This document shows positions 3,080 to 32,581 of a stretch of DNA of 35,090 bases, one piece after another. The notes beneath the pieces were generated by a model. That model was not told the DNA's origin. It worked only from the letters and a program-made list of their open reading frames with translations, and made no database searches. The stretch's first letter is position 1; each line of letters opens with the position of its first letter. Source of the stretch: Dehalococcoidia bacterium (GTDB taxonomy: Bacteria; Chloroflexota; Dehalococcoidia; GIF9; UBA5629); assembly GCA_016930155.1 (NCBI GenBank), contig JAFGHL010000016.1:1-35090 (forward strand). Direction: 5' to 3'. The translations under genes and the position numbers were made by a program.

Positions 3080-3105
3080 GGTTATCCGTGATTAATCATA
3101 TAACC
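3080..3105. repeat. nested palindrome at the 3' end of the URO-D gene
   Basis: GGTTAT and ATAACC flank a perfect 10-bp palindrome, TGATTAATCA. The structure overlaps the TAA stop of the URO-D family gene. It could form a weak transcription-ending or mRNA-end hairpin, but there is no T-run after it. Confidence 0.3.
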
Positions 3106-4285
3106 CCGCTTGAATTTCCTTCACTGTTTTAAGTATTTCCCTCATGTTCTCCACCGGCATGGTAGGCTGAAACATGTGTGTCACGCCGAGTATATGTCTA
3201 CCGTGAATTTTTCCGATACGGTAACTCTGCAGGATACTTTCCCTTATTTCCTGTGGGCTCATTTGCTCACCAAGTTGCGTATCTATTCCGGTAATGAATG
3301 CCAGTCTATCTCCATACTTCTCATAAGCCGATTGAAAATCATTACCTGCCTTGGGCTGAAATGCCTGCAAGGCATCAAGCTCTGCTTCCACATAATAATC
3401 GAGGAAGGGAGTTTGGAATCCACAGGAATGCAGGATAGCAATCGCACCGGCATCATGAATAGCCGCTATAATGCGCTTGAGATGCGGGTAAGTGAACTCC
3501 TTCCACATCTGCATCGATATCAATGGACGACCTGTATAACCATAGTCGTCATAGATAAATATCATATCAGCGCCATTCTTCACGCAGCAGCGGGCCAGAT
3601 CTATCGACCAATCACCGAAGCGCTGCATGAACTGCTTGACCTCAACCGGATTATCATATAACGCCATCATGAAAGGAGCCATACTCCAAATCTGAGTGCT
3701 GAATAGATCTTGTACTCCGAAGCCTTCCATCATGATACTTGCTCCGGGGTAAGCTTTCCTCACCTTTCTTAACGCACTGAAGCATTTATCATCGGTAAAG
3801 TCTGGAAACCTGTAGTCCTTTAAATCTGTGGCCGTCTTGATAGCAGGTTTCTCGATGTCCCAATATATCCCACCCCCCAATCCTCTGACGCTGCCAAAAG
3901 CGTCCAAAACCTTGAGCTGACCATTCTCGAAGTAAATACGCTTGACAGTATAACCAGTGCCTACAATTTGAAACGATATATCGGCCCCCAATTCCAGTAC
4001 GTATATATGATTCCCGTAATCATTGAGAAAGTAAGGCAATGCCCTCCATATATTCGGCGCATTGAACTCACCGCCTCTGTGGTATTTTCTCCACAGGAAA
4101 TGCGCCAGGAAGTTCCAGTAGATATTATGGCCCGGCTGTATCTCCGTCATCATGCGGCACACTGTGTGTGGGTTAAACCAGTACATTACAGGTACACGAT
4201 CAACGGGCAAACCTTTGATCGCAGCATGTACACGTTCCTTGGAAGTCATCAGCCCCTTGGGCATATTAACGCGCTCAATCCTCAC
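3092..4285 (-). CDS. uroporphyrinogen decarboxylase (URO-D) family protein, probable corrinoid methyltransferase component
   Basis: This 397-residue protein has the URO-D fold pattern: a SKERVHAAIKG start, an IYDDYGYTGRPLIS strand (D246-D247) and LHSCG (H286, C288). Relatives such as the MtaA/MtbA/CmuA proteins move methyl groups between a corrinoid protein and a thiol or folate using zinc held by HxC and a later Cys. Here the third ligand position reads VTH (H370) instead of Cys, so the zinc set may be His-Cys-His. The start is GTG at 4285, with AGGAGG eight bases upstream. It sits downstream of a corrinoid protein gene and a GPH symporter gene on the same strand. A true uroporphyrinogen decarboxylase is unlikely because the protein is longer than HemE and no haem genes are nearby. 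Confidence 0.75.
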   Translation of the reverse strand: MRIERVNMPKGLMTSKERVHAAIKGLPVDRVPVMYWFNPHTVCRMMTEIQPGHNIYWNFLAHFLWRKYHRGGEFNAPNIWRALPYFLNDYGNHIYVLELGADISFQIVGTGYTVKRIYFENGQLKVLDAFGSVRGLGGGIYWDIEKPAIKTATDLKDYRFPDFTDDKCFSALRKVRKAYPGASIMMEGFGVQDLFSTQIWSMAPFMMALYDNPVEVKQFMQRFGDWSIDLARCCVKNGADMIFIYDDYGYTGRPLISMQMWKEFTYPHLKRIIAAIHDAGAIAILHSCGFQTPFLDYYVEAELDALQAFQPKAGNDFQSAYEKYGDRLAFITGIDTQLGEQMSPQEIRESILQSYRIGKIHGRHILGVTHMFQPTMPVENMREILKTVKEIQAGLYD

Positions 4286-4387
4286 TGTATTTTCCTCCTC
4301 TGCCGATTATTATATTTCACGCGAAATTCTATCCATCAACTATAGCAGCTCCACGCCAACGCATTTTTATCCAGGCCTCATAATTAA

Positions 4388-5743
4388 TTATGAAATGGCA
4401 TGTTTTGTTTCGAGATCGCTGCGTATCTGCTTATGCAAAGTTTCATCAAGCTTATACCATTGCATGACTATTGCGCCAAGCACGCACAGGATGAATGGCA
4501 TTACAGTCAACAACAAACGTATCGCCATTAGAGAACCTTCCGACTGTTGAACATTTGGTATATACCCTGAATACTCTAAAGCAAATCCAACGATTAATCC
4601 CGATATCGAGCCCGCCGCTTTTATTGTGAAATTATATAGCCCGTATTGAAAACCTTCGCAACGGGACCCGGTTTTCCACTGGCCATAATCGACTGTGTCG
4701 GGTGTATTGGATAAAAAGCTCAGGGACAATCCGCAAAAGAAGAACCCTGCAAGTATAAATAAGGGAAGCAGAAATAGTATATTGGGCTCCGAGTTAAAAA
4801 AATTAGCGAGTAGCGTCAGACCAAATCCGATAAAACCTATTTGATAGACCAATTTCTTGCCTATTTTTTTGGAGATTATCACCCACAAAGGCATCGAAAC
4901 TGCGGCAACGGCAAACAGGCAAATAAATGCGATGGGTATAAATGATTCAAACGGTACACAGTATTTAAAAAAATAATTCATAACCATGACGACCATGGTA
5001 AAAATGGTAAACTCTATGCAGACCACGGCTATCAATATCAAGTATGGTTTGTTTTGCTTGATCAAACCGAAGCCTTCCTTGAATTTATAGCGGTGCTCAG
5101 CCGATACCGTATGCTTTTCGCGGCTTACCAGACCTGTAATAATCCATATTACAGCTACTATGATTCCAATTATTATGGCCAGCTTTGAAAACCCCGACGC
5201 TTGGTTTGCGCCATCTGAAAATAAGTTCACCAGCGGCAAAAAGGCCCCGCCTAACAATAACAAAGTAACCATACCGAAGATTTTAGAATACGCCATAATC
5301 TTCGTTCGTTCATGTGTGTCCATAGTCATGTTCGGAACCATAGAAAAATAGGGCATGGTGGTAAAGCTTTGGAGAGTCCAGGCAAGCAGCGCGATAACGG
5401 TAAAATAAATCTCCTTGCCAATCACAGAGAAATCGGGAACCTGGAAAAGCAGGCTAAAAGAGATGCCCAATGGTATTGCTCCAATCAATATTAACATCCT
5501 TTTACTGCGCACAAAATCACTGAGATAGCCCATAAAGAAATCAGCGAAGGCATCCCATGCTCTGGGAATCGCCATTATGAGTCCGCCGACAGCGGGGCTG
5601 ATAAGCGCCACGTCGGTCAAGAAATACATAAGATAGAAACTGATCGAACTATATACTACCTCACCTGCCATTCCACCTATACCATAACTCAATTTTCCAG
5701 AGAACGATACCTCCTCTTTCACTATATCCGCAGTCTTTTTCAT
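4388..5743 (-). CDS. GPH family (MelB-like) cation symporter
   Basis: This 451-residue protein has about 12 hydrophobic segments. It opens with the GPH pattern LSYGIGGMAGEVVYSSISFYL and continues with AWDAFADFFMGYLSD, the usual loop after helix 2. Members of the glycoside-pentoside-hexuronide:cation symporter family import sugars, glycosides or uronates with H+ or Na+. AGGAGGA precedes the ATG. It lies between the corrinoid gene and the URO-D gene, all in one orientation, so it may import the methylated or glycosidic substrate whose methyl group these proteins process. The substrate cannot be told from sequence. Confidence 0.85.
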   Translation of the reverse strand: MKKTADIVKEEVSFSGKLSYGIGGMAGEVVYSSISFYLMYFLTDVALISPAVGGLIMAIPRAWDAFADFFMGYLSDFVRSKRMLILIGAIPLGISFSLLFQVPDFSVIGKEIYFTVIALLAWTLQSFTTMPYFSMVPNMTMDTHERTKIMAYSKIFGMVTLLLLGGAFLPLVNLFSDGANQASGFSKLAIIIGIIVAVIWIITGLVSREKHTVSAEHRYKFKEGFGLIKQNKPYLILIAVVCIEFTIFTMVVMVMNYFFKYCVPFESFIPIAFICLFAVAAVSMPLWVIISKKIGKKLVYQIGFIGFGLTLLANFFNSEPNILFLLPLFILAGFFFCGLSLSFLSNTPDTVDYGQWKTGSRCEGFQYGLYNFTIKAAGSISGLIVGFALEYSGYIPNVQQSEGSLMAIRLLLTVMPFILCVLGAIVMQWYKLDETLHKQIRSDLETKHAIS

Positions 5744-5846
5744 AACAACATCCTCCTACATAATCAAAAGGGCCGCATCCAGCCGCCCAGGAAGCGACCA
5801 ACCGAATCTCCAACTAGTGAAATGTATATGGCAACAGCGTAAATTG

Positions 5847-5868
5847 ACTGATCTGTCACTGATCCGTC
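5847..5868. repeat. tandem 11-bp direct repeat upstream of the symporter gene
   Basis: ACTGATCTGTC and ACTGATCCGTC follow each other directly with one mismatch, in the 127-bp gap between the corrinoid and symporter genes. One helical turn per repeat would suit a regulator binding as a direct-repeat dimer. It could also be chance. Confidence 0.3.
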
Positions 5869-5870
5869 AT

Positions 5871-5982
5871 TTATCCATACGTGTGATTGCAAAAGGCCAG
5901 TGCCGCCTCAGCCGCCGAGACGGCATCCGGCTCATAGCAGTCAGCGCCGATTGCAGAACAAAATTCAGGTGTAATAGGAGCA
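5871..5982 (-). pseudogene. out-of-frame C-terminal tail of the corrinoid protein gene
   Basis: In the frame one base off from the upstream gene, the minus strand reads APITPEF, CSAIGADCYEPD, AVSAAEAALAF, NHTYG and TAA at 5873-5871. This is the family-typical last helix-strand-helix of the B12 domain, which closes over the nucleotide tail of the cofactor. Its conservation implies that the shift is very recent or is a base error. Confidence 0.75.
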
Positions 5983-6516
5983 GCCGCCCACCATAATTTT
6001 CACATTCTCACGTTTGTTATTGGCAGCAAAGATTTTAACGACGTTTTTCATTTCATTCATCGTGGTTGTCAGCATGGCTGAAAGGCAAACGATATCCGCA
6101 TGATTTTCCTGTGCAGCCTCATAAAATTTCTGCGGGGGTACATCCACACCAAGGTCAATCACTGTCATGCCCTTGCTTTCCAGCATCATCTTGACAAGAT
6201 TTTTCCCTATGTCATGTAAATCTCCCTTGATAGTCCCAATAACGGCGGTACCCCTGGAAGCAATTCCTGCCGCAATCAGGTGAGGTTTGAGCATTTCGAT
6301 ACCTTCATTCATAGCGCGGGCGGAAATTAAGACCTCCGGAATAAATACCTCGTCGTTTTTAAATTTCTCGCCTATTATGTCCATTCCGGCCATAAGCCCT
6401 TCGTTCAGGACTTTCTCGGGTGCAATGCCTTCACCCAATGCCTGCTGAACCAATGCTTTAACCTGTGAAGCCCGTCCTTGCTGAAGTAACTCACTTATAT
6501 TTGTTAAAATGCTCAT
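5965..6516 (-). CDS. corrinoid (B12-binding) methyl carrier protein, C-terminus cut by a frameshift
   Basis: The 183-residue frame has the usual two domains of MtaC/MtbC-type carrier proteins: a helical cap (residues 1-88) and a B12-binding Rossmann domain with GDLHDIG (D99, H101, G104), where His101 is the lower cobalt ligand. It also has the SAMLTTTM loop and a MVGG strand. After MVGG the frame gives CSYYT and a stop, whereas this family continues with GAPIT/GAPVT and about 35 more residues. Dropping one base (A at 5982, plus strand) restores GAPITPEFCSAIGADCYEPD and a normal end at 5871, for about 214 residues. The start follows AAGGCGGG. It is presumed to carry the methyl group for the URO-D family methyltransferase encoded downstream. 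Confidence 0.85.
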   Translation of the reverse strand: MSILTNISELLQQGRASQVKALVQQALGEGIAPEKVLNEGLMAGMDIIGEKFKNDEVFIPEVLISARAMNEGIEMLKPHLIAAGIASRGTAVIGTIKGDLHDIGKNLVKMMLESKGMTVIDLGVDVPPQKFYEAAQENHADIVCLSAMLTTTMNEMKNVVKIFAANNKRENVKIMVGGCSYYT

Positions 6517-10397: not shown

Positions 10398-11471
10398 TCA
10401 CGCAGTTATATCGTCCGGCCTGACCTCTATTCCCGCCCGGGCCGATTGCAGCACCGCCAGTCCGAACTGGAGCACCGATTTGCCCGTCGGGCCGTCCAGA
10501 ATAGGTTCTCCCCCCTTTCTCAACACATCGATCAGGTGTCTGGTGCAATCGATAAAGCCGCACGACCAGTCCACCCGGTCCACCGGCACCGGTATAGTCT
10601 TGCCGTCCTTAAAGATCATAACTTCGGGCAGATCCACTGTCCTGGCCGTGTAACGGTTAATAAAGATCATGCCCTTATCGCCGATTATTTCAATCCTGTC
10701 GTCGTCAACATAATAGTCGGACGAAATCTGCGTATTGGGTGTATGCTCCACATCAAAGACCCCATAGCGCCTCGGCGACTTGAACTGGAACATCATGGTG
10801 GCAGGCGCATCCAGATACACGCCGGGCATTACTTCCGTACGATCGATCCATGCCTTGACTCTCTCAACAGAACCCATCAGATAGTGCGCCAGCGAGTACA
10901 GGTGATATCCATGGTCGAATACCATGGGGCCTCCCCCGCACTGTTCCTCGTTGAAGCGCCATATCCAGGCGTCCATGGGAATCTCCCAACCACAGTCCAT
11001 GATTCCCGTGCTCACGTGCATTCGCAGCATCTGCGGCTCGCCGATCTCCCCTGCCGTTAACAGCTTTTTTGCCATCACCGCAGGCGGATAAAAGACGAAC
11101 GTCTCATATATACGGAGTATCACGCCGGCTTTCTTGGCCGCCTCAATCATGCGGTCGGCCTCGGACACACAGGTAGCCATGGGTTTCTGCACGCTGACAT
11201 GCTTGCCCGCAAGGCAGGCCTCAACCGTCATATCCGCATGAAGATGGTGAGGCAGGAGCAGCTCAACCAGATCAACATCTGGATCGGCAAGTACCTTCCC
11301 GTATTCTGTGTATATCTTATCCACTCCCCACTGCCGGGCCTGTTTTTCAGCGATCTCCTTATTCAGGTCGCACACTGCCACTATGCGTGCGTCCGATATT
11401 CCCTGATATCCCAACTGGTGCAGGCCTGAGATGCGTCCACATCCCACAATAGCAACACCGATCGGTTTCAT
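10398..11471 (-). CDS. Gfo/Idh/MocA family NAD(P)-dependent dehydrogenase
   Basis: This 357-residue protein has the Rossmann start VAIVGCGRISGLH (residues 6-18), the acidic end of strand 2 (D35) and a HVSVQKP motif (Q95-K96-P97) where most relatives have EKP. It then has GGGPMVFDHGYH, with the catalytic-type Asp and His. Members oxidise or isomerise sugars and cyclitols, for example inositol dehydrogenase. GGAGGAG precedes the ATG. It is the last gene of a six-gene catabolic operon, which suggests a sugar- or cyclitol-oxidising step. The Glu-to-Gln change beside the catalytic Lys is unusual and may alter substrate or rate. Confidence 0.88.
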   Translation of the reverse strand: MKPIGVAIVGCGRISGLHQLGYQGISDARIVAVCDLNKEIAEKQARQWGVDKIYTEYGKVLADPDVDLVELLLPHHLHADMTVEACLAGKHVSVQKPMATCVSEADRMIEAAKKAGVILRIYETFVFYPPAVMAKKLLTAGEIGEPQMLRMHVSTGIMDCGWEIPMDAWIWRFNEEQCGGGPMVFDHGYHLYSLAHYLMGSVERVKAWIDRTEVMPGVYLDAPATMMFQFKSPRRYGVFDVEHTPNTQISSDYYVDDDRIEIIGDKGMIFINRYTARTVDLPEVMIFKDGKTIPVPVDRVDWSCGFIDCTRHLIDVLRKGGEPILDGPTGKSVLQFGLAVLQSARAGIEVRPDDITA

Positions 11472-11491
11472 ACTCTCCTCCCCAGGGTCTT

Positions 11492-12124
11492 TCAGCCCTT
11501 TATTCTGTCTTTTAATGAACTCAGTATCGCTGTGTCGCTGCCTCTACATGATCCCATAGTTTTTATCAGGCCCGGATAGGCTGCTACCGGCGATACAACT
11601 TCGACGGGTAACTTCGCAAGTATCTCCGTCATTTTATGATGGGTAATCCGGTTAAGCCTGCCCAGCAGCTCCCTTGACTCCCGTTGAGATTTCTGCCTGT
11701 GGATCGGATATCCTGAGCCCGGCTCAACGCAAAACAGCTTCTCAAATATAAATTTTAGATTGGCCTCGCCTGCCCAGCCGTATCCCTGGTTGAGCATAAG
11801 CGAAATGCAGTTTCCTCCATTTATCTGCGTGAACAACCAGGCGTCTAAAGGTGTGAGTATGTGTCCGCAGGTGACACCGGGATACTGCATAACGGAGTTG
11901 AGGAAACCCTGCCCGGTCCCACACCCGCCTACCACAAAATCCACCGTCCCGGCGTTGAGCAGGACTGCGGCCATCAGTCCCGTGTGTATATAGGAAAGCT
12001 CGGGCTTCTCGCCGCTCCTCTTCATACCGGCGTTGATTACATCGTGACCCAGCCCATCCAGAGCAGCCAGTATATCCGCATTCCGGTCCGCCGCGCTCGT
12101 CTCATTTATTACGGCTATACGCAT
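11492..12124 (-). CDS. RpiB/LacA/LacB family sugar isomerase-like protein
   Basis: This 210-residue protein has the family core: a first strand MRIAVINE, the VDFVVGGCGTGQGF loop that carries the catalytic Cys in RpiB, and a VTCGHILTPLDAWL segment. It is about 60 residues longer than typical RpiB (about 150), with a C-terminal extension. RpiB/LacAB enzymes interconvert aldose and ketose phosphates; one member in sulfoquinovose transketolase clusters is reported to isomerise 4-deoxy-4-sulfoerythrose. Here it directly follows a split transketolase (12-base gap), which suggests it converts the transketolase aldose product into a ketose for a second round. AAGGGGAG precedes the ATG. Confidence 0.8.
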   Translation of the reverse strand: MRIAVINETSAADRNADILAALDGLGHDVINAGMKRSGEKPELSYIHTGLMAAVLLNAGTVDFVVGGCGTGQGFLNSVMQYPGVTCGHILTPLDAWLFTQINGGNCISLMLNQGYGWAGEANLKFIFEKLFCVEPGSGYPIHRQKSQRESRELLGRLNRITHHKMTEILAKLPVEVVSPVAAYPGLIKTMGSCRGSDTAILSSLKDRIKG

Positions 12125-12136
12125 CTCCCCTTCACC

Positions 12137-13081
12137 TCATGCCTTTTTCCTGTCGATCACTGACATGGCTGAATTAACTATGTCGGATACGCCCATACCA
12201 CAGGCGTCCATGATCGATTCCGGGTCCGGCCCCGTGCGTGCGAACGTATCATGTATCCCTACCATGGACAGAGGAACCGGCCGGACAGCAGCCAGCGCTT
12301 CGGCCACAGCCGATCCGAGGCCGCCGATCACAGTGTGCTCTTCGGCCGTTACAATGGCGCCCGTATCCGCCGCCGCTTTCAGTATCAATTCCGTATCGAG
12401 CGGCTTGACGGTATGTGTCTCGATAACACGTGCCTGTAGCCCTTTGGAGGCCAGCGCATCAGCCGCCTGCATGCTGCGGCCCATCATGGAGCCGCATGCC
12501 ACAATCGTTAAGTCATTCCCCTGCCTGCGCACTATGCCTTTTCCGATAGATAGCTCGTCATCCGGGCTGGATACGGGCAGGGTGGCGGCACGGTTAAGCC
12601 TGAAGTATACAGGACCATCGAATTCCGCTATCAGGGGCACGAAAGCGGCGGCCTCATTGCCATCGGCCGGGACAATGACCGTAATCTCAGGCAGGGACCG
12701 CATGATCGCTATATCGCTGATGGCGTGGTGCGTGGGACCATCCTTGAAGTCTGATACCCCTGCGTAGCTGGAGGCGATCTTGACATTGGTTCTGGCGTAA
12801 CAAACGCAGGTGCGCACCTGTTCCAGAGCGCGCAGTGCCGCCAGCGCTGCGAATGCATTGGCGAAGGGGACCATACCGGCCAGGGCCAGTCCAACGGCGG
12901 CATCGATCATACAGGGCTCGGCAATACCGAAATTGAAAAAGCGGTCCGGGAAGCGTTTCTCGAAGAAATTGGATAGCGTAGAGGAAGCTGTATCGACATC
13001 CAGCGCCACCACCTTTGGATTGACCGCGCCATAGTCTGCCAGCGCGCGCCCGTAGGCCTCTCTCATAGACAGGTTAGCCAT
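12137..13081 (-). CDS. transketolase, C-terminal subunit
   Basis: This 314-residue protein contains the pyrimidine-binding half of transketolase (VALDVDTASSTL, FFNFGIAEPCM with the catalytic Glu, GPTHHAISDIAIMR) and the transketolase C-terminal domain. Split transketolases of about 280 plus 310 residues are common in bacteria and archaea, and both subunits are needed for TPP binding. It starts two bases after the stop of the N-terminal subunit gene, with GGGGAGGG upstream. The placement in a catabolic operon, not a Calvin or pentose set, suggests a dedicated substrate. Confidence 0.93.
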   Translation of the reverse strand: MANLSMREAYGRALADYGAVNPKVVALDVDTASSTLSNFFEKRFPDRFFNFGIAEPCMIDAAVGLALAGMVPFANAFAALAALRALEQVRTCVCYARTNVKIASSYAGVSDFKDGPTHHAISDIAIMRSLPEITVIVPADGNEAAAFVPLIAEFDGPVYFRLNRAATLPVSSPDDELSIGKGIVRRQGNDLTIVACGSMMGRSMQAADALASKGLQARVIETHTVKPLDTELILKAAADTGAIVTAEEHTVIGGLGSAVAEALAAVRPVPLSMVGIHDTFARTGPDPESIMDACGMGVSDIVNSAMSVIDRKKA

Positions 13082-13083
13082 AG

Positions 13084-13923
13084 TCAGCTGCCCTCCCCGG
13101 ACAATTCAGCCATGGCCGCTGCGTATTGTTCTTCATTGGGCGGTATCCCGTGCCATTGCGCTTTGTTCTCCATAAAAGATACACCCTTGCCCTTGACCGT
13201 TCGGGCTATGATGACTACCGGCCTGCGAGTCATGCTTGCGGCATCTTCAAGCGCACTCAATATCTGTCCCATATCGTGGCCGTCGATGGATATGACTTCC
13301 CAGCGGAAGGAGCGCCACTTATCGGCGAAAGGCTCCATGGGCATGATGTCGTGCACAGCCCCATCGAGCTGCACATCGTTATAATCCACGATGGCTATCA
13401 GATTGCCCGGATTAAACTTTGCGCAAGCGTTTGCGCTCTCCCAGATGATGCCTCCCTGGCACTCGCCGTCGCCCAGCAGCACATAGGTGTGATAATCCCG
13501 TTTCTGCAGACGGGCCGCCAGGGACAGGCCAAGTCCGATAGCGATGCCGTGCCCGAGTATGCCGCTGGTCATATCCACACCGGGTGTCTTAAGACGGTCG
13601 GGATGCCCCTGCAACTGGCATTCCAGCTTACCCCAGTGCTCCAGTTCCGATTCCGTAAAGTAGCCGCGGCGCGCCAGGGCTGAGTACAATAGAGCCGAAG
13701 CATGCCCCTTGCTGAGAATGAAATGGTCCCTGTCCTCCCAGTCCGGCTTTTTTGGATCGATGCGCAGCACCTTGAAATACAGCGCGGCCACAATATCGGC
13801 CGCCGAGAGGCAGCCGCCTGGATGGCCTGCCTGCCGCCGGTAGATCATGGTCAGGCTCTGCCGTCGCAGGTAATTGGCCTGCGTTTTCAGATCGGCTATT
13901 ACTTTATCACCGTGGTTTTGCAT
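13084..13923 (-). CDS. transketolase, N-terminal subunit
   Basis: This 279-residue protein is the TPP-diphosphate-binding half. It has GHPGGCLSAADI, DRDHFILSKGHA, GHGIAIGLGLSLA and the thiamine motif LLGDGECQGGIIWE ... IAIVDYND. The ATG at 13923 is preferred, with AGGG seven bases upstream; a TTG just before it is the other option. It is paired with the C-terminal subunit encoded two bases downstream. The enzyme transfers two-carbon ketol units from a ketose donor to an aldose acceptor. Confidence 0.93.
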   Translation of the reverse strand: MQNHGDKVIADLKTQANYLRRQSLTMIYRRQAGHPGGCLSAADIVAALYFKVLRIDPKKPDWEDRDHFILSKGHASALLYSALARRGYFTESELEHWGKLECQLQGHPDRLKTPGVDMTSGILGHGIAIGLGLSLAARLQKRDYHTYVLLGDGECQGGIIWESANACAKFNPGNLIAIVDYNDVQLDGAVHDIMPMEPFADKWRSFRWEVISIDGHDMGQILSALEDAASMTRRPVVIIARTVKGKGVSFMENKAQWHGIPPNEEQYAAAMAELSGEGS

Positions 13924-13938
13924 CAATCATCCCTGTCT

Positions 13939-15843
13939 TTATAGCCCGATATCATGCCGCAATGCCTGCGTGCTTTCACACCAGTTCCCCACATTCCATC
14001 GCCCATATACACCCATGCCACCCAACTCATTATCACCGAAGTAAACGGGAACATGTATCAGCGACAACCCGTCATAGGCATAAGCCCTGTCAAGAGCAGC
14101 CCTCAGTCCATCCGGTGAAGAACCTCCGTCAAGCGCGAGGACGCCTTTAATAGAGGCCGCCCACTTCACATAGTCAACTTCGACAGAATCGCCTGTGGCG
14201 AACTCATGACCGTACTGCGCCATCTGCAAGCCGGTGATGGCCGCCATCCTGCGGTTGTCAAGCAGCAGGATACATCCTCGCGCACCATGCTGAACTCCGT
14301 CGATCAGTATCTGCGGATTCATAGTGAAGGATCCATCACCCGAAAATGCCAGACCGAAAAACTTTTTATCCGATGCGGCGGTGGCAAGCAAAGCTGATAC
14401 GGCAAATCCCATATAGCTGGCGCCAGTATCATTCAGCGTCTGTCCGGGTGCTTCGTCTTCAATTATCTGGAAGGCGTTGGCCTGCACGTCGCCGGCATCG
14501 AAAAACTTGATAACATCTTCTTTGCTTCTTGCCCAGTCATCCGCTGTTTTGATAACTGCCGGCTGCGTGAGCACATCTTTCTTCCAGACATCATCGTAAA
14601 GCAGCGGACGTTCATAGCGCTCCTGCTTGAATTTATTCCACTCGGCCCGCCTGGCGCTGCAGGAGCTCATCCACTCCGATGGTTTACCCTGGATTTTCGG
14701 TGGGACTTTACGGAGCTCCTTTAACAACCTTTGCAGAGTGAGGCCTATATCGCCGACCAGGGCGATGGAGCCGCCGCATTGCTCGTCGCTGTTGTAGTTG
14801 ACGGCAGCCTCAATCTCAGCGTTGATATTGATGACCTGCTTTACGCGCAAATAAGCGGTGCGAGAGCAGTCAGACTGGCATACGAAGCGTGTACCGACAG
14901 CCAGCAGCAGGTCCGCGTTCTCCATCGCATAGTTGCCGCATAATGTACCCTTGGAACCGCCTGCGGCCATATTGCGGGGATTGCTGTACGGCACCACGCC
15001 ACTGGCAACGGGAGAAACCACAGCTACGGCGTCGGCGAGGTCCAGCAGTTCATTGATCTCCTTCTCAGCACCCCGTGCACCACCACCCACACGTACGATC
15101 ACACGCTTCGATTCCATTAACCTTTTTGCAGCGGCAGTGTAATCTCCCTCTGCGGCTCCCATCGTGATCGATACCTTTTGCGGCAGCTCGTTGAGCACGA
15201 ATTGCCTGAGCACGACATCCTGGGTATTCATAGGTAAAAGCAGGAAGAACGGGCCTGCACGGTAGGGATGATCGACGACGGTCTGACCACGCTTCAGCGC
15301 AGTGGAAACGGCCAGAGGCGTATGCAGGGTATAGGCATGGCCCATGGTGGAACACAGCCGCAGGAAAAGGCCTTGCTCGTATTTCGGTATCTGCTGCATG
15401 TTGAACCCCTCGTCCTCGGTTGTCTCGTCGCCGAATAAATACCAGACTCCAAGGCCGTCGGAGGCAGGAACGAGCGAGGCGGCCATGGCATGAAGAGCGC
15501 CGGGACCAATGGATGTTATGACTGCTGACTTTTTCCCCGTAGCCCAGCGCAGCGCTGCTGCCGCATGAGAGGCCTCGATCTCGCTGCGAACATTAAGCAC
15601 CCTGACCAGTCCAGCCTCTTGATATACCCGCAGCACCTCTGCAACGACCGTGCTGCCATGGCCAAACACTGCAAAATAGGTGCGGACATCCTGCCTTAAA
15701 AGTCCCAGCACAACCGCTTCAGACAGTGTCAGGTCATGCCGCCGAGGGTAGCCGGCGCTGGACAGTGCGGCATCCACGCTTCCGTGCTTGACTATCGCAT
15801 TCACGCGTTCCTGGCGCGCCGCGACTATAGCATCATAAATCAC
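13939..15843 (-). CDS. IolD-like TPP-dependent enzyme (acetolactate synthase superfamily)
   Basis: This 634-residue protein has three acetolactate-synthase-type domains. The N domain has YFAVFGHGSTVVAEVL and NVRSEIEASHAAAA, with the catalytic Glu. The middle domain is at about residues 235-370. The C domain has GLAFSGDGSFTMNPQ and then LLLDNRRM, the TPP motif. Length and the FGHG start fit IolD, which opens the ring of trihydroxycyclohexane-1,2-dione in inositol breakdown, better than acetolactate synthase or sulfoacetaldehyde acetyltransferase. The similarity is distant and the true substrate could be another cyclic or alpha-diketone. The start is GTG at 15843. It lies between the aldehyde dehydrogenase gene and the split transketolase genes. 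Confidence 0.8.
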   Translation of the reverse strand: MIYDAIVAARQERVNAIVKHGSVDAALSSAGYPRRHDLTLSEAVVLGLLRQDVRTYFAVFGHGSTVVAEVLRVYQEAGLVRVLNVRSEIEASHAAAALRWATGKKSAVITSIGPGALHAMAASLVPASDGLGVWYLFGDETTEDEGFNMQQIPKYEQGLFLRLCSTMGHAYTLHTPLAVSTALKRGQTVVDHPYRAGPFFLLLPMNTQDVVLRQFVLNELPQKVSITMGAAEGDYTAAAKRLMESKRVIVRVGGGARGAEKEINELLDLADAVAVVSPVASGVVPYSNPRNMAAGGSKGTLCGNYAMENADLLLAVGTRFVCQSDCSRTAYLRVKQVININAEIEAAVNYNSDEQCGGSIALVGDIGLTLQRLLKELRKVPPKIQGKPSEWMSSCSARRAEWNKFKQERYERPLLYDDVWKKDVLTQPAVIKTADDWARSKEDVIKFFDAGDVQANAFQIIEDEAPGQTLNDTGASYMGFAVSALLATAASDKKFFGLAFSGDGSFTMNPQILIDGVQHGARGCILLLDNRRMAAITGLQMAQYGHEFATGDSVEVDYVKWAASIKGVLALDGGSSPDGLRAALDRAYAYDGLSLIHVPVYFGDNELGGMGVYGRWNVGNWCESTQALRHDIGL

Positions 15844-15878
15844 TCTTCAAAGAATCTCCTTTAACTGAGTTTAAACTA

Positions 15879-17357
15879 TTAAAATTTACGTGTCCATTCC
15901 TTGGGCCAGCGTTCGACAACAATCTTTTTCTGAGTAAAAAACTCCAGGGCATCAAGGCTCTGTCCATGCAAGTCACCGAAATGACTGTCTTTCCATCCGC
16001 TGAACGGGAAAAATGCCATGGGCGCGGCTATACCGATATTGATACCCATATTGCCAACCTCCGCCTCGTAGCGAAATTTCCTGGCAACCGCGCCACTGTC
16101 GGTAAATATGCACCCCATATTTCCATAGCGGCTGCCGTTGATAAGGTCTATTGCCTGATCAATGCTCTCAACGTAGATCAACCCCAGTACCGGGCCGAAT
16201 ATTTCGGTGGTGGCCACCTCGCCCTCAGGCGGCAGGCCGTCTAGAATTGTAGGACGCACAAAGCTGCCTTTCTCATAACCCTTGATAATCGTTCCCCTGC
16301 CGTCGGCGGGCACGCGAGCCCCTTCTTTTTCGCCCTGTCCTATCAAGTGCTCTATCCTGGCTTTGCTCTGATGCGTAATAACCGGCCCCATCTGCACCTT
16401 ATCATCCAGGCCGTACCCTACTATCCTCGTCCTGGCCGCATCGACAATGGCCTCGGTGAAACGGCCTTTCGCCTCACCTACGATTATAACCAGCGATCCT
16501 GCCAGGCAACGCTGGCCGGCACAGCCGAACGCACTGTCAGCCGTTATTCGCGCCGCCATTCCCATATCAGCATCGGGCATAATGACTATCGGGTTCTTGG
16601 CTCCGCCCTGGCACTGTGCCCTCTTGCCGGCGGCCGTGGCATGGCTGTAAACGTATTTAGCCACGGGCGTTGAGCCCACAAAGCTCACGGCACGGACGGC
16701 CGGACTATCCAGCAAAACATCCACCACCTCCTTGGCTCCATTAACAAGGTTCAAAACACCCGGAGGGAAGCCGGCCTGCTCAATCAGGCCGAACACCTTT
16801 TGCAGTGTACAGGGCACCTTTTCAGAAGGCTTGACCACATAGGTGTTGCCGCAGGCAACGGCATAGGGTAAAAACCAGAAAGGCACCATGCCGGGAAAGT
16901 TGAAGGGGGCAATCACTGCGCACACGCCCACAGGCTGCCTGACCATGGTCTCATCGATACCCCGTGCTATATCCTCGGAGTTATACCCCTGCATCAGCTG
17001 CGGAATACCGCAGGAGCATTCAACGTTCTCAATCAGACGGCGCGTTTCACCCCGCGCCTCCTCCAGCGTTTTGCCACACTCCATGGTTGTCATGCGCGAC
17101 AGTTCCTCAAAATGATCCTCCAGCAGGCTCTTCAATTTGAACAGGCACTGCACACGTTCCGTCGCCGGAGTTCTACGCCAGGCTGGAAAAGCATCAGCTG
17201 CTGCGTCCACCGTGTTTTTAACCTCTTCTGCGGTTGACATCCGCACCCGTCCCAATACCTCCCCGGTAGCAGGATTTATCACATCCTGCATCTCGCTCGA
17301 TTTGGACGGCAACCACTTCCCCCCTGTGTAATTCAATATATCAATCGCACTACTCAT
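15879..17357 (-). CDS. CoA-acylating aldehyde dehydrogenase, methylmalonate-semialdehyde dehydrogenase (MmsA/IolA) type
   Basis: This 492-residue protein has the MMSDH pattern: [49 protein letters not shown] in place of the Glu motif of hydrolytic aldehyde dehydrogenases, and AGQRCLAGS with catalytic Cys284. It should oxidise a semialdehyde with NAD and CoA to an acyl-CoA. I chose ATG at 17357 because GGAGG lies nine bases upstream; an in-frame ATG at 17381 would put that site inside the gene. As first gene of the operon it may handle the short aldehyde released by the following TPP enzymes. In inositol pathways the equivalent step is IolA. Confidence 0.9.
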
Positions 17358-17538
17358 ATGTATTAACCTCCGGGTATCCAACCAGGCCCTGTAGCTGTAA
17401 CATAATCAGGTATTGCTACTATATTTCCTCTGCGCATCGGTCTTCCGCTCCCCCTGACTTTGTCGTAATATCCAGACAATTATACATCACCGTCTGACAT
17501 TATTCCCGCTTTTACCGGGTGCTGTTTTATGATAATAT
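17358..17538. promoter_or_regulatory. divergent promoter region between catabolic operon and TetR gene
   Basis: On the minus strand a perfect TATAAT lies at 17484-17479, giving a leader of about 115 bases for the aldehyde dehydrogenase operon; its -35 is poor. CAGAC (17473-17477) and GTCTG (17492-17496) flank this -10 symmetrically. Towards the regulator gene, TATGAT lies at 17528-17533 and a CCCG/CGGG inverted repeat at 17505-17519 covers its -35 area. These repeats are candidate sites for the adjacent TetR protein. Confidence 0.4.
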
Positions 17539-18210
17539 ATGCTGGTAACGACAGAGCGTTCGGTCTGCAGGATGAGGAAAGTACGTACATTCAGCCGTGA
17601 TACGGAACTGGTGAAGCAGCGGCGCAACCATATCGTCAAGGTAGCCACCGGGCTGATTGCCAGGCGAGGCTACAACAACATCAGCACCCGCGAACTGGCG
17701 GCGGCGCTGGGCATGAGCACGGGCGGCCTTTATCATTACATTGGATCAAAGCAGGACATCCTTTATTTAATCATTAACTTTACCTCCGATCTGACCGGTC
17801 AGGCGCTGGGACGTTTTGACCAACGGATGCTGAATGAAGCGCCCTCCCGGCAGCTCAGGCAGTCGATTGAGGTTTACCTGGATATCGTGGATAGCTATCG
17901 CGACTTCCACAACTTCGTCAACCATATCATGCTGTCGCTAACCGTGAGTGAAAGGCGCATAGTCTACCAGGCTGAGTCCAGGGTGGTGGAGTATTTCGAG
18001 AAGTTGATACTGCGGGGAATTGATCAGGGCGAGTTTGTCGACAGCGATGCCAGGCTTTTGGCACATAATATCGTGGCTATGGCCAACGCCTGGGCCAACA
18101 GAGGGTGGTACTTGAAAAAGTACTACACAATTGAGAGTTATGCCAGAGAGCAGATCAAATTGCTTCTTATTCAGCTCGAGAAGACAAAAACTGCGGAAAT
18201 AATTTATTAA
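17539..18210 (+). CDS. TetR/AcrR family transcriptional regulator
   Basis: This 223-residue protein has an N-terminal TetR helix-turn-helix (ISTRELAAALGMSTGGLYHYIGSKQDILYLI) and a helical ligand-binding C domain. The start is uncertain. ATG at 17539 lies too close to the -10-like TATGAT at 17528 to fit that promoter, and ATG at 17572 (MRKVRTFSRD) fits better, though neither has a good ribosome site. It is divergent from the six-gene operon and 15 bases upstream of the 4-hydroxybutyryl-CoA dehydratase family gene, so it likely controls both units in response to a pathway metabolite or acyl-CoA. Confidence 0.9.
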   Translation: MLVTTERSVCRMRKVRTFSRDTELVKQRRNHIVKVATGLIARRGYNNISTRELAAALGMSTGGLYHYIGSKQDILYLIINFTSDLTGQALGRFDQRMLNEAPSRQLRQSIEVYLDIVDSYRDFHNFVNHIMLSLTVSERRIVYQAESRVVEYFEKLILRGIDQGEFVDSDARLLAHNIVAMANAWANRGWYLKKYYTIESYAREQIKLLLIQLEKTKTAEIIY

Positions 18211-18225
18211 TAGATAGGAGGAGTC

Positions 18226-19722
18226 ATGACAACTAACAGTAAACCTGGTACCAAAACCCTCGGCTCCAAGAAGCAGTTCATCGACAGGTTGAGCAAGATG
18301 CGCCGGAATATATATTTCGACGGCCATCTGATCGACCGTACTGATGAGTTGCAGATGGACACCATCAATATGATCGGATCGACCTACGATTTCGCCCAGG
18401 ATCCTAAGTTCCAAAATCTTGTCCTCGCCAAAAGCCATATAACCGGAAATACCATCAACCGCTTTACGCATATCCATCAAAGCACAGAGGACCTGCACAA
18501 GAAGCAGGATATGACCCGAGCCCTCTGCCAGCAGGTAGGCGGCTGCATACAGCGCTGTATGGGCATAGATGGCGCCAATGCATGCAATGCCATATCTTTC
18601 GAGGCTGACAAGCAAAACAAAGGAGCTACCGAGTACCACAAGAATTTCCTTAAATGGATCGAGTATTTCCAGAGCAACGACCTGGTCGGATGCTGCGCCC
18701 AGACCGACGTTAAAGGCGACAGGATGAAAAGACCCAGCCAGCAGAAGGACCCTGATCTATACCTCCATATCGTGGAGCGCAAGAGCGACGGCATCGTCGT
18801 AAGCGGCTGCAAGGTGCACAATTCCGAGGCTTCCACAGCTGATGAGATCATAGTCGTGCCCACACGCTCCCTGCTGCCCGAGGAAAAGGATTGGGCAGTT
18901 GCCTTCGCCATACCAGCCGACTGGGAGGGAATAAAGCAGGTCGCGACTATCCATAACCTGAGGGAGCGCAAGCATTATAAAAAGGGAGTAATGCAGGGCG
19001 CAACAGACTCTTATACTATCTTCGACAAGGTATTCATCCCATGGGAAAGGGTATTCGTGGCCGGCGAGACCATTCACGGCGCGGTGGGCGCGCTGCTTTT
19101 CGCGCTATTCCACCGCCATAGCTACTCCGGCTGCAAACCGGCCATCGGAGACCTAATGCTGGGTACGGTGGCGCTGGCAGCCGAGTACAACGGTATTGCC
19201 AAGGCCGGCCATGTCAGGGAGAAGCTGGCGGAGTTGATCATGGTATCCGAGCTCGGATACGCGGCCGGCTTCACTGCCTCGGAGATGGGTAAGCCTGAAG
19301 TCTATATGCCCGGATTCGGCTTTGTACCCTACGGACCCGGCAGTTTCATCCCCAACTCGATCTACTGCAATGTCGGACGCTGCCTGACCGGTGAGGCGGT
19401 CTATCGCGAGGCTGAGATACTCTGCGATGTGGCGGGCGGCATCCCCGCCACCTTCCCCCATGAGGGAGACTTCCTCAATCCGGAAACCAAGGCGCTGTTG
19501 GAGAAATACACCATGCGCAATCCGGACATAAAAATCGACGATGCCATCAAGCTCTGGATGCATGCAGGTGATCTGCTCTGCTCGGCATCAGGCGGTATCG
19601 CGCAGGTCGGTGGTTTCCACGGCGGCGGCTCCCCCGTTATGGAACAGATTGCCATAACAACGCAGTATGATATCGAGTCGTGTAAAAAAATGGCCAAGAG
19701 GATAGCCGGAATAGAGAGCTAA
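18226..19722 (+). CDS. 4-hydroxybutyryl-CoA dehydratase / vinylacetyl-CoA isomerase family protein
   Basis: This 498-residue protein belongs to the HpaB/acyl-CoA-dehydrogenase-fold family. The ligands of the [4Fe-4S] cluster of 4-hydroxybutyryl-CoA dehydratase (Cys99, Cys103, His292 and Cys299 in the clostridial enzyme) are matched with the same spacing: C107, C111 (GCIQRC), H296 and C303 (HRHSYSGC). The active-site Tyr and Lys at +4 and +8 from the His are also there (Y300, K304). The flavin hydroxylases of this family lack these cysteines, so a dehydratase or isomerase role is likely. AGGAGGAGTC precedes the ATG. It is cotranscribed with the TetR gene. No other 4-hydroxybutyrate gene is in the window, so a different 4-hydroxyacyl-CoA substrate is possible. 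Confidence 0.88.
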   Translation: MTTNSKPGTKTLGSKKQFIDRLSKMRRNIYFDGHLIDRTDELQMDTINMIGSTYDFAQDPKFQNLVLAKSHITGNTINRFTHIHQSTEDLHKKQDMTRALCQQVGGCIQRCMGIDGANACNAISFEADKQNKGATEYHKNFLKWIEYFQSNDLVGCCAQTDVKGDRMKRPSQQKDPDLYLHIVERKSDGIVVSGCKVHNSEASTADEIIVVPTRSLLPEEKDWAVAFAIPADWEGIKQVATIHNLRERKHYKKGVMQGATDSYTIFDKVFIPWERVFVAGETIHGAVGALLFALFHRHSYSGCKPAIGDLMLGTVALAAEYNGIAKAGHVREKLAELIMVSELGYAAGFTASEMGKPEVYMPGFGFVPYGPGSFIPNSIYCNVGRCLTGEAVYREAEILCDVAGGIPATFPHEGDFLNPETKALLEKYTMRNPDIKIDDAIKLWMHAGDLLCSASGGIAQVGGFHGGGSPVMEQIAITTQYDIESCKKMAKRIAGIES

Positions 19723-28815: not shown

Positions 28816-30069
28816 ATGGGCAAAACTATCAGTGAGAAGATATTAAGCAACAAATCGGGTATTGATGCGCGAGCAGGAGATATCGTCATCTCTGCTGTGG
28901 ACCTGGTATTCGTGCAGGACACGACTGGTCCGCTCACAATAAGGCAGTTCAAATCAGGCAAGAAGCAGACGCTGGCCTCACCTGCAAGAACAGCCCTTTT
29001 CATCGACCATGCCAGCCCCAGCCCCAGCCGGCAGCTTTCGAACGACCATATCTTTATTAGAGAATTCGCTGCCGAGACGGGCTGTCTGTTATTCGATGCC
29101 GGCTGCGGCGTCTGCCACCAGATCGTGGCAGAGAAGCTGGCCAGGCCGGGCGACGTTATCGTGGGCGCCGATTCGCACACGGTGACCGCCGGCGCCATGG
29201 GAGCCTTCGCAACCGGGATGGGATCAAGCGACGTGGCCGTGGCCATGTCACTGGGCAAGACCTGGTTCAGGGTGCCTGAGACGATCCGCATCGAGGTGAC
29301 GGGTAAGTTCTCCAAATGTGTGGGCGCCAAGGACCTCATCCTGTACCTGATCGGATTGATCGGAGCGGATGGCGCGACCTACAAGGCTCTCGAATTCACG
29401 GGAAATGCGGTGGACTCTATGCCCATGTGGCAAAGATTGACAATCTCTAATATGGCTATCGAAGCCGGCGCCAAGGTGGGACTATTCCCATCCGACCGCA
29501 TCACACGGGAGTACCTGAAAAAACTGGGCAGAGGGAATGATTACAAACCCATATTTACGGACCCCGATGCGATATACGAGCGTACGGTCAATGTTAAAGC
29601 GGATAAGCTGGAGCCGATGGTCGCCAGGCCGCACACAGTCGATAATACGACCATAGCAAAGTCTCTGTGCGATATAAAGGTTGACCAGGTGTTCATCGGC
29701 ACCTGCACCAATGGACGGCTGGAGGATATGGCTGAAGCGTCCTCTATACTAAAGAATAAAAAAATACGCGCGGGAGTCAGGCTGATCGTATGCCCGGCCT
29801 CACGAAAAATATATAGCGAGGCCATCAACGCCGGCTACATCCAGAATATCGTTGAGGCTGGCGGTATCATTCTTCCTCCAGGTTGCGCCGGCTGCCTGGG
29901 ACTGCACCAGGGCGTATTGGGGGACAAAGAGGTCTGCCTCTCCACGGCCAACCGCAACTTCAAAGGCCGTATGGGCAATCCCGAAGGGCTTATATACCTG
30001 GCGAGCACTGCTACTGCCGCGACATCTGCACTGACGGGCAGAATAACCGATCCTCGAGAGGTGCTGTAA
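28816..30069 (+). CDS. aconitase / 3-isopropylmalate dehydratase family, large subunit
   Basis: This 417-residue protein is of LeuC/homoaconitase type, with [4Fe-4S] ligands C297 (IGTCTNGR), C357 and C360 (PPGCAGCLG), and the substrate loops DHASPSPS and GADSHTVTAGAMGAF. With the separate small subunit it hydrates and dehydrates citrate, isopropylmalate or homocitrate. The next genes encode isocitrate dehydrogenase and fumarase, so an aconitase role in the oxidative TCA branch is favoured over leucine synthesis. The stop overlaps the small-subunit start (TAATG). AGGA lies nine bases before the ATG. Confidence 0.92.
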   Translation: MGKTISEKILSNKSGIDARAGDIVISAVDLVFVQDTTGPLTIRQFKSGKKQTLASPARTALFIDHASPSPSRQLSNDHIFIREFAAETGCLLFDAGCGVCHQIVAEKLARPGDVIVGADSHTVTAGAMGAFATGMGSSDVAVAMSLGKTWFRVPETIRIEVTGKFSKCVGAKDLILYLIGLIGADGATYKALEFTGNAVDSMPMWQRLTISNMAIEAGAKVGLFPSDRITREYLKKLGRGNDYKPIFTDPDAIYERTVNVKADKLEPMVARPHTVDNTTIAKSLCDIKVDQVFIGTCTNGRLEDMAEASSILKNKKIRAGVRLIVCPASRKIYSEAINAGYIQNIVEAGGIILPPGCAGCLGLHQGVLGDKEVCLSTANRNFKGRMGNPEGLIYLASTATAATSALTGRITDPREVL

Positions 30070-30575
30070 TGGGAGCAACCATTCTCAAAGGCAGGGCGTT
30101 TAAATTCGGCGATGATATATCCACCGACCTGATCATTGCCGGTAAATACGCTCACCTGCGCAGCAACCTACCCGAGCTGGCCAAGCATGCCATGGAAGAC
30201 GCCAATCCCGACTTCATCAAGCTCGTCAAACCCGGTGATTTCATCGTGGCCGGGTCCAACTTCGGCCTCGGGTCCAGCCGGGAACATGCGCCGCTGGTGA
30301 TAAAAATGGCGGGCGTGAGCGCCATCCTTGCCAAATCATTTGCACGTATCTTCTTCAGGAATGCCATCAATCAGGGCGTGCCTGCACTGATATGTCCGAC
30401 AGATAAGATCGCCGATGGGGATAACCTCGAGATCAGCCTGGACGAGGGTATCATTCGCAATATCACCAGGAACGAAAGTTACAGCTTCACCAGGATACCG
30501 GCCGCCATGTTGAGTATCTTGAACGAAGGTGGATTGATCCCCTACATCAATAAGCACGGCGATTTGAAACTCTGA
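30069..30575 (+). CDS. aconitase / 3-isopropylmalate dehydratase family, small subunit
   Basis: This 168-residue swivel-domain protein has KFGDDISTDLIIAGKY, GSNFGLGSSREHAPL (active-site Ser and Arg) and FARIFFRNAINQG. The substrate-discriminating loop after strand 1 reads KYAHLRS (residues 26-32). It is not the YLVM-type loop of isopropylmalate isomerases nor an exact YLRT homoaconitase loop, so specificity is open. It begins within the stop of the large-subunit gene. Confidence 0.92.
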   Translation: MGATILKGRAFKFGDDISTDLIIAGKYAHLRSNLPELAKHAMEDANPDFIKLVKPGDFIVAGSNFGLGSSREHAPLVIKMAGVSAILAKSFARIFFRNAINQGVPALICPTDKIADGDNLEISLDEGIIRNITRNESYSFTRIPAAMLSILNEGGLIPYINKHGDLKL

Positions 30576-30603
30576 ATTTCAGGACACTAAGGGGTTATGT
30601 AAA

Positions 30604-31686
30604 ATGACTTACCGCGTTACGCTGATACCGGGAGACGGCATCGGTCCCGAGATCACTCGAGCCACAGTCAGTGTGCTGGAGGCCACGGGCATTGACTTCG
30701 ATTGGGAGATACATACCGTCGGCGAGGCGGCCGTTGAGAAGTACGGGACCCCCCTGCCCGAAGCAACCCTCGAATCCATCAGGAAGAACGGTGTCGCGCT
30801 TAAAGGGCCTGTAACCACTCCCATCGGCAAGGGGTTCCGCAGCGTAAACGTCGCGTTGCGCAAGCAGCTCGACCTGTACGCCTGTCTGAGGCCCTGCAAA
30901 AGTTATCCCGGCGTAGTAACCACGTTGTACAGGAACGTGGACCTTGTGATTGTCAGGGAGAACACGGAGGACCTCTATATAGGTATCGAGTTCGCCAGGG
31001 GAACTGCTGAGGCCTCACAGCTCTATGATCTGATAATGCAAAGTTACAAGGGCAGCCTGGATAGAAATTCGGGGTTCAGTATAAAGGCTATCTCTGAGCA
31101 GGGGTCACGCCGTATCGTTAAGTATGCCTTCGATTATGCCCGCAAATATGGCCGGAAGAAGGTCTCGGCAGTTACCAAGGCCAACATACTCAAATATACC
31201 GACGGACTGTTCCTTTCCACTGCCAGGGAAGTTGCCAGGGGATATCCGGAGATAGAGTACGAAGAGGTCCTGGTCGATGCGCTGTGCATGCAGCTCGTGC
31301 GCAATCCGCAACGTTTCGATACGCTGGTACTTCCCAACCTCTACGGCGATATTATCTCGGACCTGTGCGCGGGACTGGTGGGTGGTCTGGGACTGGCGCC
31401 CGGCGCCAACATTGGCGATGGGCTGGCTATATTCGAGCCCACGCACGGGAGCGCCCCTAAATACACCGGTTTGAACAAAGTCAGCCCGATGGCGCAGATG
31501 CTCTCAGCCGTACTGATGTTGAGATACATGGATGAAACTTCTGCAGCCGACAGGATGGAAGCTGCCATCAGCGCCGTAATAGCCGAGGGGAAAAAGGTTA
31601 CCTACGACCTGCGCAGAGACCGCAACGAGCCCAGCGCAGGCACGTCCCAGGTCGCTGAAGCAGTGATAGAAGAGCTTAAAAAGTAA
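30604..31686 (+). CDS. NAD-dependent isocitrate/isopropylmalate dehydrogenase family, probable isocitrate dehydrogenase
   Basis: This 360-residue protein has LIPGDGIGPEI, the substrate loop FRSVNVALRKQLDLYACLRP (S80, N82, R86, R96), VRENTEDLYIGIE (R118-D123), VTKANILKYTDGLF (catalytic Lys) and NLYGDIISDL. The S-x-N loop and ENTEDLY are typical of isocitrate (or homoisocitrate) dehydrogenases and unlike LeuB. It lies 28 bases after the aconitase small subunit. It likely yields 2-oxoglutarate for glutamate synthesis. Confidence 0.9.
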   Translation: MTYRVTLIPGDGIGPEITRATVSVLEATGIDFDWEIHTVGEAAVEKYGTPLPEATLESIRKNGVALKGPVTTPIGKGFRSVNVALRKQLDLYACLRPCKSYPGVVTTLYRNVDLVIVRENTEDLYIGIEFARGTAEASQLYDLIMQSYKGSLDRNSGFSIKAISEQGSRRIVKYAFDYARKYGRKKVSAVTKANILKYTDGLFLSTAREVARGYPEIEYEEVLVDALCMQLVRNPQRFDTLVLPNLYGDIISDLCAGLVGGLGLAPGANIGDGLAIFEPTHGSAPKYTGLNKVSPMAQMLSAVLMLRYMDETSAADRMEAAISAVIAEGKKVTYDLRRDRNEPSAGTSQVAEAVIEELKK

Positions 31687-31733
31687 TATAATCAGCACGG
31701 AGATAAATTGTCCGGCCCCTTTCTAACATTGTT

Positions 31734-32579: not shown

Positions 32580-32581
32580 AT

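Follow-up and report, generated by a model that had tools for sequence, protein, structure and literature searches.

The window analysed here is a 35,090-nucleotide stretch of Dehalococcoidia DNA (contig C56 of a 2.6 Mb assembly, 98% complete with 7.95% contamination), and the subject of this work is a group of six closely packed genes on its minus strand. In the order of transcription they encode an aldehyde dehydrogenase (ALDH), an IolD-like thiamine diphosphate (ThDP) enzyme, the N- and C-terminal halves of a split transketolase (TK), a ketol-isomerase and a Gfo/Idh dehydrogenase, with intergenic gaps of 35, 12, 2, 12 and 20 bases. None of the six open reading frames has an internal stop, and all are intact. 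An earlier reading of the DNA (the original prediction) had described them as an unassigned catabolic operon without a kinase. The profile matches agree with its family assignments, and no kinase gene is present among the operon genes. The features are as follows.

15879..17381, minus strand: CoA-acylating semialdehyde dehydrogenase of the methylmalonate semialdehyde dehydrogenase (MMSDH, IolA) type; start TTG at 17381 or ATG at 17357
13939..15843, minus strand: ThDP enzyme, distant sister of IolD; TPP_enzyme N, M and C domains, IolD motifs, model with acetohydroxyacid synthase (AHAS)/pyruvate oxidase (POX) fold
13084..13926, minus strand: N-terminal (ThDP-binding) half of the split TK; Transketolase_N, 191 bits
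12137..13081, minus strand: C-terminal half of the split TK; Transket_pyr and Transketolase_C; H461 replaced by Tyr, R358, S385 and R520 kept
11492..12124, minus strand: ketol-isomerase of the DhuI (PRK09273) family; LacAB_rpiB; NF006753, 202.7 bits
10398..11471, minus strand: Gfo/Idh/MocA dehydrogenase; PF01408, PF22725, PF02894
17539..18210, plus strand: TetR regulator, divergent, only a possible regulator of the operon; PF00440; 157-base intergenic region

Four congeners (genomes G006, G003, G002 and G001) have the operon genes in an unchanged order, several of these loci being cut at contig ends, and a genome of another genus (G018) has them reordered and accompanied by a GPH permease. This recurrence excludes chance, contamination or a binning artefact as the origin of the operon. 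Within the class, the IolD-like gene is carried by 5 of 393 genomes, which belong to 2 of 225 genera, and the operon is thus an accessory module there. Synteny of the TetR gene with the operon is absent in G003 and G018.

Properties of the operon enzymes

The operon TKs share 74-90% identity among each other and 41-46% with the housekeeping split TKs of relatives. In a phylogenetic tree they form one group apart from the latter with a support of 90/87, which is only moderate because of long branches. Furthermore, the C-terminal halves were aligned with the solved split TK of Carboxydothermus (6yaj) and numbered according to the E. coli enzyme. At the phosphate-site position H461, 15 of the 17 operon-type TKs, which come from several phyla, carry Tyr and two, from clostridia, Asp, whereas His is found within the loop GEDG in all 24 housekeeping TKs of relatives. 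All operon and housekeeping TKs aligned retain R358, S385 and R520, a pattern consistent with a phosphorylated acceptor for the operon enzymes. Position D469, which contacts the alpha-hydroxyl of the aldehyde substrate in the TK family, is Asp in the Chloroflexota TKs and Ala or Asn in those of other phyla. Judged from these alignments, the operon TK is a divergent paralogue and not a housekeeping enzyme. A housekeeping pentose-phosphate origin was therefore rejected on the grounds of motif, tree and paralogue identity, and the case of a TK and an isomerase lying in housekeeping clades without other copies in the genome, named in the original prediction, does not apply.

The isomerase had been called RpiB/LacAB-like. 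It does contain a LacAB_rpiB domain and is not a housekeeping enzyme, but it belongs to the DhuI family and not to RpiB, scoring 202.7 bits against NF006753/PRK09273 (cut-off 137) and 22.9 bits against the RpiB model (cut-off 135). Two true RpiBs are encoded in the source genome away from the operon. The nearest solved relatives are 3ono (48% identity), gbs1892 (4u8e, 41%), 2ppw and 3c5y. Of these, gbs1892 is the streptococcal DhuI, a ketol-isomerase of unphosphorylated uronates. We propose that the protein may interconvert the aldose and ketose forms of an unphosphorylated acid sugar. DhuI has an RpiB/LacAB fold and is the non-homologous isofunctional counterpart of KduI, to whose family IolB belongs (PMC12838403). 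KduI/IolB is absent from the six genomes searched, including the source genome. Near the isomerase homologue of a gut clostridium (locus L077) lies the gene of a reductase resembling KduD/DhuD (275 of 369 bits). A search of viral contigs with the isomerase gave no relatives.

The ALDH is of the MMSDH/IolA type with 535 bits against TIGR01722 (cut-off 448.5), and its best solved relatives are MMSDHs. It keeps the carboxylate-binding residues Arg124 and Arg301 as well as the catalytic Cys302, while the general base Glu268 is replaced. From this combination of residues, a carboxylated semialdehyde as the substrate and a CoA product are predicted, which supports the previous suggestion that a short aldehyde would be released and converted to an acyl-CoA. 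At residue 305, the enzymes of the source genus and G018 have Gly or Ala in place of Ile or Leu, so that the substrate pocket may differ. The best models for the Gfo/Idh protein are those of levoglucosan and inositol dehydrogenases, both matching far under their cut-offs.

For the ThDP enzyme, the IolD model TIGR04377 is the best NCBIfam match, yet with 138 bits it stays well below the cut-off of 715, and the identity to annotated IolDs amounts to 25-28%. Common to the ThDP enzyme and IolD are the His of FGHG and the SIGPGA, LQQ, GxSxMG and LQ motifs; the source genome's own acetolactate synthase (ALS) lacks these IolD-specific motifs. A confident AlphaFold model (pLDDT 84.7) has the AHAS/POX fold, and Foldseek matched AHAS, glyoxylate carboligase, 2-hydroxyacyl-CoA lyase and pyruvate oxidase equally well at 18-20% identity, with no specific nearest enzyme. 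The enzyme labelled IolD-like thus represents a separate, distant sister family of IolD.

Gene neighbourhoods of the ThDP enzyme family

A scan of bacterial and archaeal genomes, with one genome per species, gave 222 confirmed relatives of the ThDP enzyme. The best 80 of these (49-88% identity) are found in Chloroflexota, Planctomycetota, Latescibacterota, Gemmatimonadota, Hydrogenedentota, Spirochaetota, Armatimonadota, Desulfobacterales, Rhizobiales, clostridia and others. This central gene has relatives in ten or more bacterial phyla. The cultured carriers, among them gut and marine strains, are Phaeobacter piscinae, Labrenzia, Salipiger, Anaerotruncus colihominis, Mediterraneibacter and Faecalicatena, and further, annotated copies are located on alphaproteobacterial plasmids.

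Neighbouring genes were counted at 86 loci of the ThDP gene, within a 9 kb limit that drops some genes (e.g. the TK C-terminal half and MMSDH of L089). The isomerase is present in 16 of the 17 loci with a TK as compared to 13 of the 69 without one. A dehydrogenase of the succinate semialdehyde dehydrogenase (SSADH) type occurs in 17 of the 23 loci with an IlvD/EDD dehydratase as compared to 2 of the 63 lacking IlvD. None of the 23 IlvD loci contains a TK or the isomerase (TK together with IlvD: 0 of 86). IolE, IolB or IolC was not found near the ThDP gene at any of the 86 loci, which also sets the family apart from IolD. The ALDHs scanned in TK loci are of the MMSDH type in the window, L038, L045, L070 and L089; that of L105 is a homologue of the SauS-type acylating sulfoacetaldehyde dehydrogenase (557 of 600 bits). 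The ALDHs scanned in IlvD loci (L040, L057, L097, L115) are of the non-acylating SSADH type. Spirochaete-type loci combine the isomerase with BKACE and an acyl-CoA synthetase; BKACE occurs at L086, L094, L103 and L108. The upstream genes vary as well: Gfo/Idh is found with GPH or ABC import, a Zn-dehydrogenase and a molybdenum hydroxylase of the xanthine dehydrogenase (XDH) type with TTT or DASS import, and a 3-hydroxyisobutyrate dehydrogenase (HIBADH)-like enzyme and an AP_endonuc_2 protein with TRAP import. Thus, the ThDP enzyme seems to feed interchangeable downstream modules, either isomerase, TK and CoA-acylating ALDH, or SSADH and IlvD/EDD. A gene cluster from GC-rich loci (c14) without family match looked like antisense reading frames over dehydrogenase and molybdenum-enzyme genes and was ignored.

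Some of the neighbourhoods merit a separate description. On a Salipiger plasmid (L148, 11941-22255) the IolD-like enzyme is accompanied by a TRAP transporter, a dehydrogenase resembling HIBADH and tartronate semialdehyde reductase, an HbpS-like protein, an AP_endonuc_2 isomerase, SSADH and a dihydroxy-acid dehydratase. Four Rhizobiales loci (L082, L093, L099, L104) carry the IolD-like gene together with an XDH-type molybdenum hydroxylase and TctC; by eye, their neighbours look like varying mixes of amidohydrolase, maleylacetate-reductase-type, 3-hydroxyacyl-CoA dehydrogenase and branched-chain ABC genes.

A possible kinase-free pathway and its alternatives

We give an even chance to the reading that the operon serves the accessory, kinase-free catabolism of a sugar-like compound, a cyclic polyol or a uronate-type acid, with a dedicated TK and an acyl-CoA as product. 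The Gfo/Idh enzyme would oxidise the substrate to a ketone, which the IolD-related ThDP enzyme would cleave or open to OHC-CHOH-CHOH-R'-COO-, an acid ending in an aldehyde group. The DhuI-type isomerase would convert this compound to the 2-ketose HOCH2-CO-CHOH-R'-COO-, and the TK would transfer a C2 unit from it to glyceraldehyde-3-phosphate, leaving xylulose-5-phosphate and OHC-R'-COO-, which the MMSDH-type enzyme would turn into an acyl-CoA. For the sequence from isomerase over TK to CoA acylation, the case is slightly better than balanced. Least certain is what the ThDP enzyme does; an aldehydo-deoxy acid is its proposed product.

The enzymes of the modules make different demands on their substrates: an aldehyde for SSADH and the isomerase, a 2,3-diol adjoining a carboxylate for IlvD, a 2-ketose with a C3 hydroxyl for TK and a carboxylated aldehyde for MMSDH. 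The above acid is proposed because this one product would satisfy all of these needs. Both its parent substrate and its chain length are what we infer, and a five-carbon intermediate (R' = CH2) is suggested with some reserve, as the odds lie rather against it. In that case malonate semialdehyde would be released and then converted to acetyl-CoA and CO2, while SSADH and IlvD would lead to 2-oxoglutarate; further isomerisation would give 2-deoxy-3-ketopentonate for the BKACE module, so that all modules would end in central metabolites. 2-Deoxy-3-ketopentonate (3-keto-2-deoxypentonate) has been proposed as a BKACE substrate in deoxyribonate oxidation (PMC6365646). The pairing of isomerase and BKACE in some spirochaete-type loci would fit such a 2-deoxy-3-keto acid; the published route, however, contains neither an IolD-like enzyme nor a TK and parallels this one downstream module only. 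With the six-carbon alternative, inositol-derived 5-deoxyglucuronate, the modules would end at malic semialdehyde and 4-hydroxy-2-oxoadipate. The five-carbon product is favoured since the SSADH and IlvD branch would then require an aldolase, and none was seen in the operons read. A double-transketolase scheme for six-carbon 5-keto-2-deoxygluconate was discarded, because the four-carbon ketose left after the first cleavage has no C3 hydroxyl, which chemically precludes another cleavage to malonate semialdehyde.

Several points weigh against this pathway. A five-carbon product of an IolD-like reaction would need a decarboxylation or an unusual ring, and D469 is kept in the Chloroflexota TKs, yet malonate semialdehyde has no alpha-hydroxyl. 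Several TK loci have no nearby ALDH, the counts from the 86 loci are not phylogenetically independent, and the variety of transporters (GPH, ABC, TTT, DASS, TRAP) implies that substrates may differ between loci.

A wider reading, which we advance tentatively and consider less probable than its converse, is that of a phylum-wide family of kinase-free sugar-acid pathways around one ThDP gateway enzyme. This enzyme, a sister of IolD, would catalyse a new reaction, splitting a ketol or a keto acid into an aldehyde and a -CH2-COO- acid, and the exchangeable modules would be isomerase, TK and CoA-acylating dehydrogenase; dehydrogenase and IlvD, leading to 2-oxoglutarate; or isomerase and BKACE. Transketolase-based, kinase-free cleavage may, as these data suggest, not be limited to sulfosugars. 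As databases leave the ThDP family unnamed or far under the IolD cut-off, our results should give annotators and enzymologists a handle on it, and the question of the substrate can be addressed now because the ThDP gene is present in cultured strains. No description of this gene combination was found in the open literature searched; subscription papers lay outside that scope, so that an earlier account may exist.

With bacterial inositol catabolism (IolG, E, D, B, C, J and A) the operon shares an IolD-related ThDP enzyme, a Gfo/Idh dehydrogenase and an MMSDH (IolA), but it has a TK and a DhuI-type isomerase and, as observed before, lacks IolE, IolB, IolC and IolJ. A kinase-free inositol route is conceivable, although rather unlikely. 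Gfo/Idh would produce inosose, the IolD relative would form 5-deoxyglucuronate from it without IolE, the isomerase would replace IolB, giving 5-keto-2-deoxygluconate, and the TK would replace IolC and IolJ, yielding xylulose-5-phosphate and malic semialdehyde for oxidation by the ALDH. The IolD-family motifs, the IolA type of the ALDH, the inositol dehydrogenase among the best weak Gfo/Idh matches and the isofunctionality of DhuI with KduI, whose family includes IolB (PMC12838403), are all in line with such a route. However, malonate semialdehyde suits MMSDH better than malic semialdehyde, the loci with SSADH and IlvD would require the aldolase missing from the operons read, the carboxylate transporters TTT, DASS and TRAP are ill-suited to a neutral cyclitol, and IolE, IolB and IolC are missing from the 86 loci. 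In the genomes searched, neither IolE, with 22 of 290 bits at most, nor IolC, with at most about 159 of 300, exceeded its cut-off; the best IolC match in the source genome (146 bits) turned out to be a GatZ/KbaZ-PfkB fusion.

At 4664-6925 of L173 (genome G000, contig C11), one frame of 753 residues joins a GatZ/KbaZ-like aldolase subunit to a PfkB kinase, possibly a one-protein kinase-aldolase step, and similar frames of 760 residues are also present in G002 and G003. A Rhizobium daejeonense plasmid (L152, 3524-14775) carries true IolD with IolE, IolG, SSADH, an aldolase/citrate-lyase protein and dehydrogenases and no IolB, IolC or IolJ nearby, perhaps another non-classical inositol route.

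The ThDP enzyme could also simply decarboxylate or ligate 2-keto acids in a uronate or aldarate pathway, its likeness to IolD being mere ancestry. Its predicted fold is equally near to four types of ThDP enzymes (18-20% identity), many loci include acid transporters, and a decarboxylation would account for a step from C6 to C5. We nevertheless consider this unlikely in view of the IolD-specific motifs, which the ALS of the same genome lacks. The operon resembles the DhuI-DhuD/KduI-KduD pathway of unsaturated uronates in its DhuI-family isomerase, presumably acting on an unphosphorylated aldehydo acid, but differs from it in that KduD/DhuD is missing from the window and that a TK follows the isomerase. 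The apiose transketolase pathway comprises apiose isomerase, apulose kinase and apulose-4-phosphate transketolase, of which the kinase has no counterpart among the operon genes.

The sulfo-transketolase pathway (SqvD, SqwGH, SqwI, SqwD; PMC11659671) is likewise kinase-free, uses a dedicated split TK with an isomerase of the RpiB superfamily, and yields a short anionic aldehyde, with a CoA-acylating ALDH in one variant. The resemblance pointed out originally holds insofar as split TK, isomerase and CoA-acylating ALDH stand together in one operon. It fails for the active site: sulfofructose TKs have the motif R-A-F-D-R in place of R-S-F-H-R (PMC11659671), while the window TK has R-S-F-Y-R. The operon moreover adds the IolD-like ThDP enzyme and Gfo/Idh, and its ALDH is of the MMSDH type. 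By its TK motif, the operon would thus work like this pathway but is not a member of it. As had been stated, sulfo-specific genes are missing from the operon: neither a sulfoquinovosidase nor a sulfoquinovose (SQ) isomerase is among the operon genes, the rest of the genome not having been searched for either. An actual sulfonated-sugar route ending in sulfoacetaldehyde and sulfoacetyl-CoA is very improbable, even though the enzyme logic is that of SqwGH, SqwI and SqwD (PMC11659671), L105 has the SauS-type homologue and GPH permeases occur, since the window TK retains Ser385 and has Tyr in place of H461, the ALDH is of the MMSDH type, the operon lacks both sulfoquinovose enzymes and the BKACE and IlvD modules are sensible for carboxylates only.

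A classical inositol operon that had decayed or was incomplete, and into which ordinary pentose-phosphate genes had landed as TK and isomerase, would explain the parts resembling IolG, IolD and IolA but is largely refuted by the intact reading frames conserved across genera, the non-housekeeping nature of TK and isomerase, the recurrence of their pairing in other phyla, and the absence of IolB and sub-threshold IolE and IolC in the genomes searched.

Other genes in the window

On the minus strand at 3092-6516, an MtaA/URO-D-like methyltransferase, a GPH symporter and a corrinoid-binding protein adjoin, an arrangement suggestive of a methyl-transfer system that has a transporter of its own. This GPH permease (4388-5743) was considered as a transporter for the operon and rejected, as it sits in this other gene group beside the corrinoid and MtaA-like proteins; a homologue adjoins the operon in G018 only. 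On the plus strand, the TetR gene is followed by that of an HpaB-family protein (17539-19722), which from its sequence may be of the 4-hydroxybutyryl-CoA dehydratase type and not a hydroxylase. A further run on the plus strand (28816-33136), read by eye from the open reading frames, contains large and small subunits of the aconitase/isopropylmalate isomerase type, a dehydrogenase of the isocitrate/isopropylmalate type and a two-part fumarase-type hydratase.

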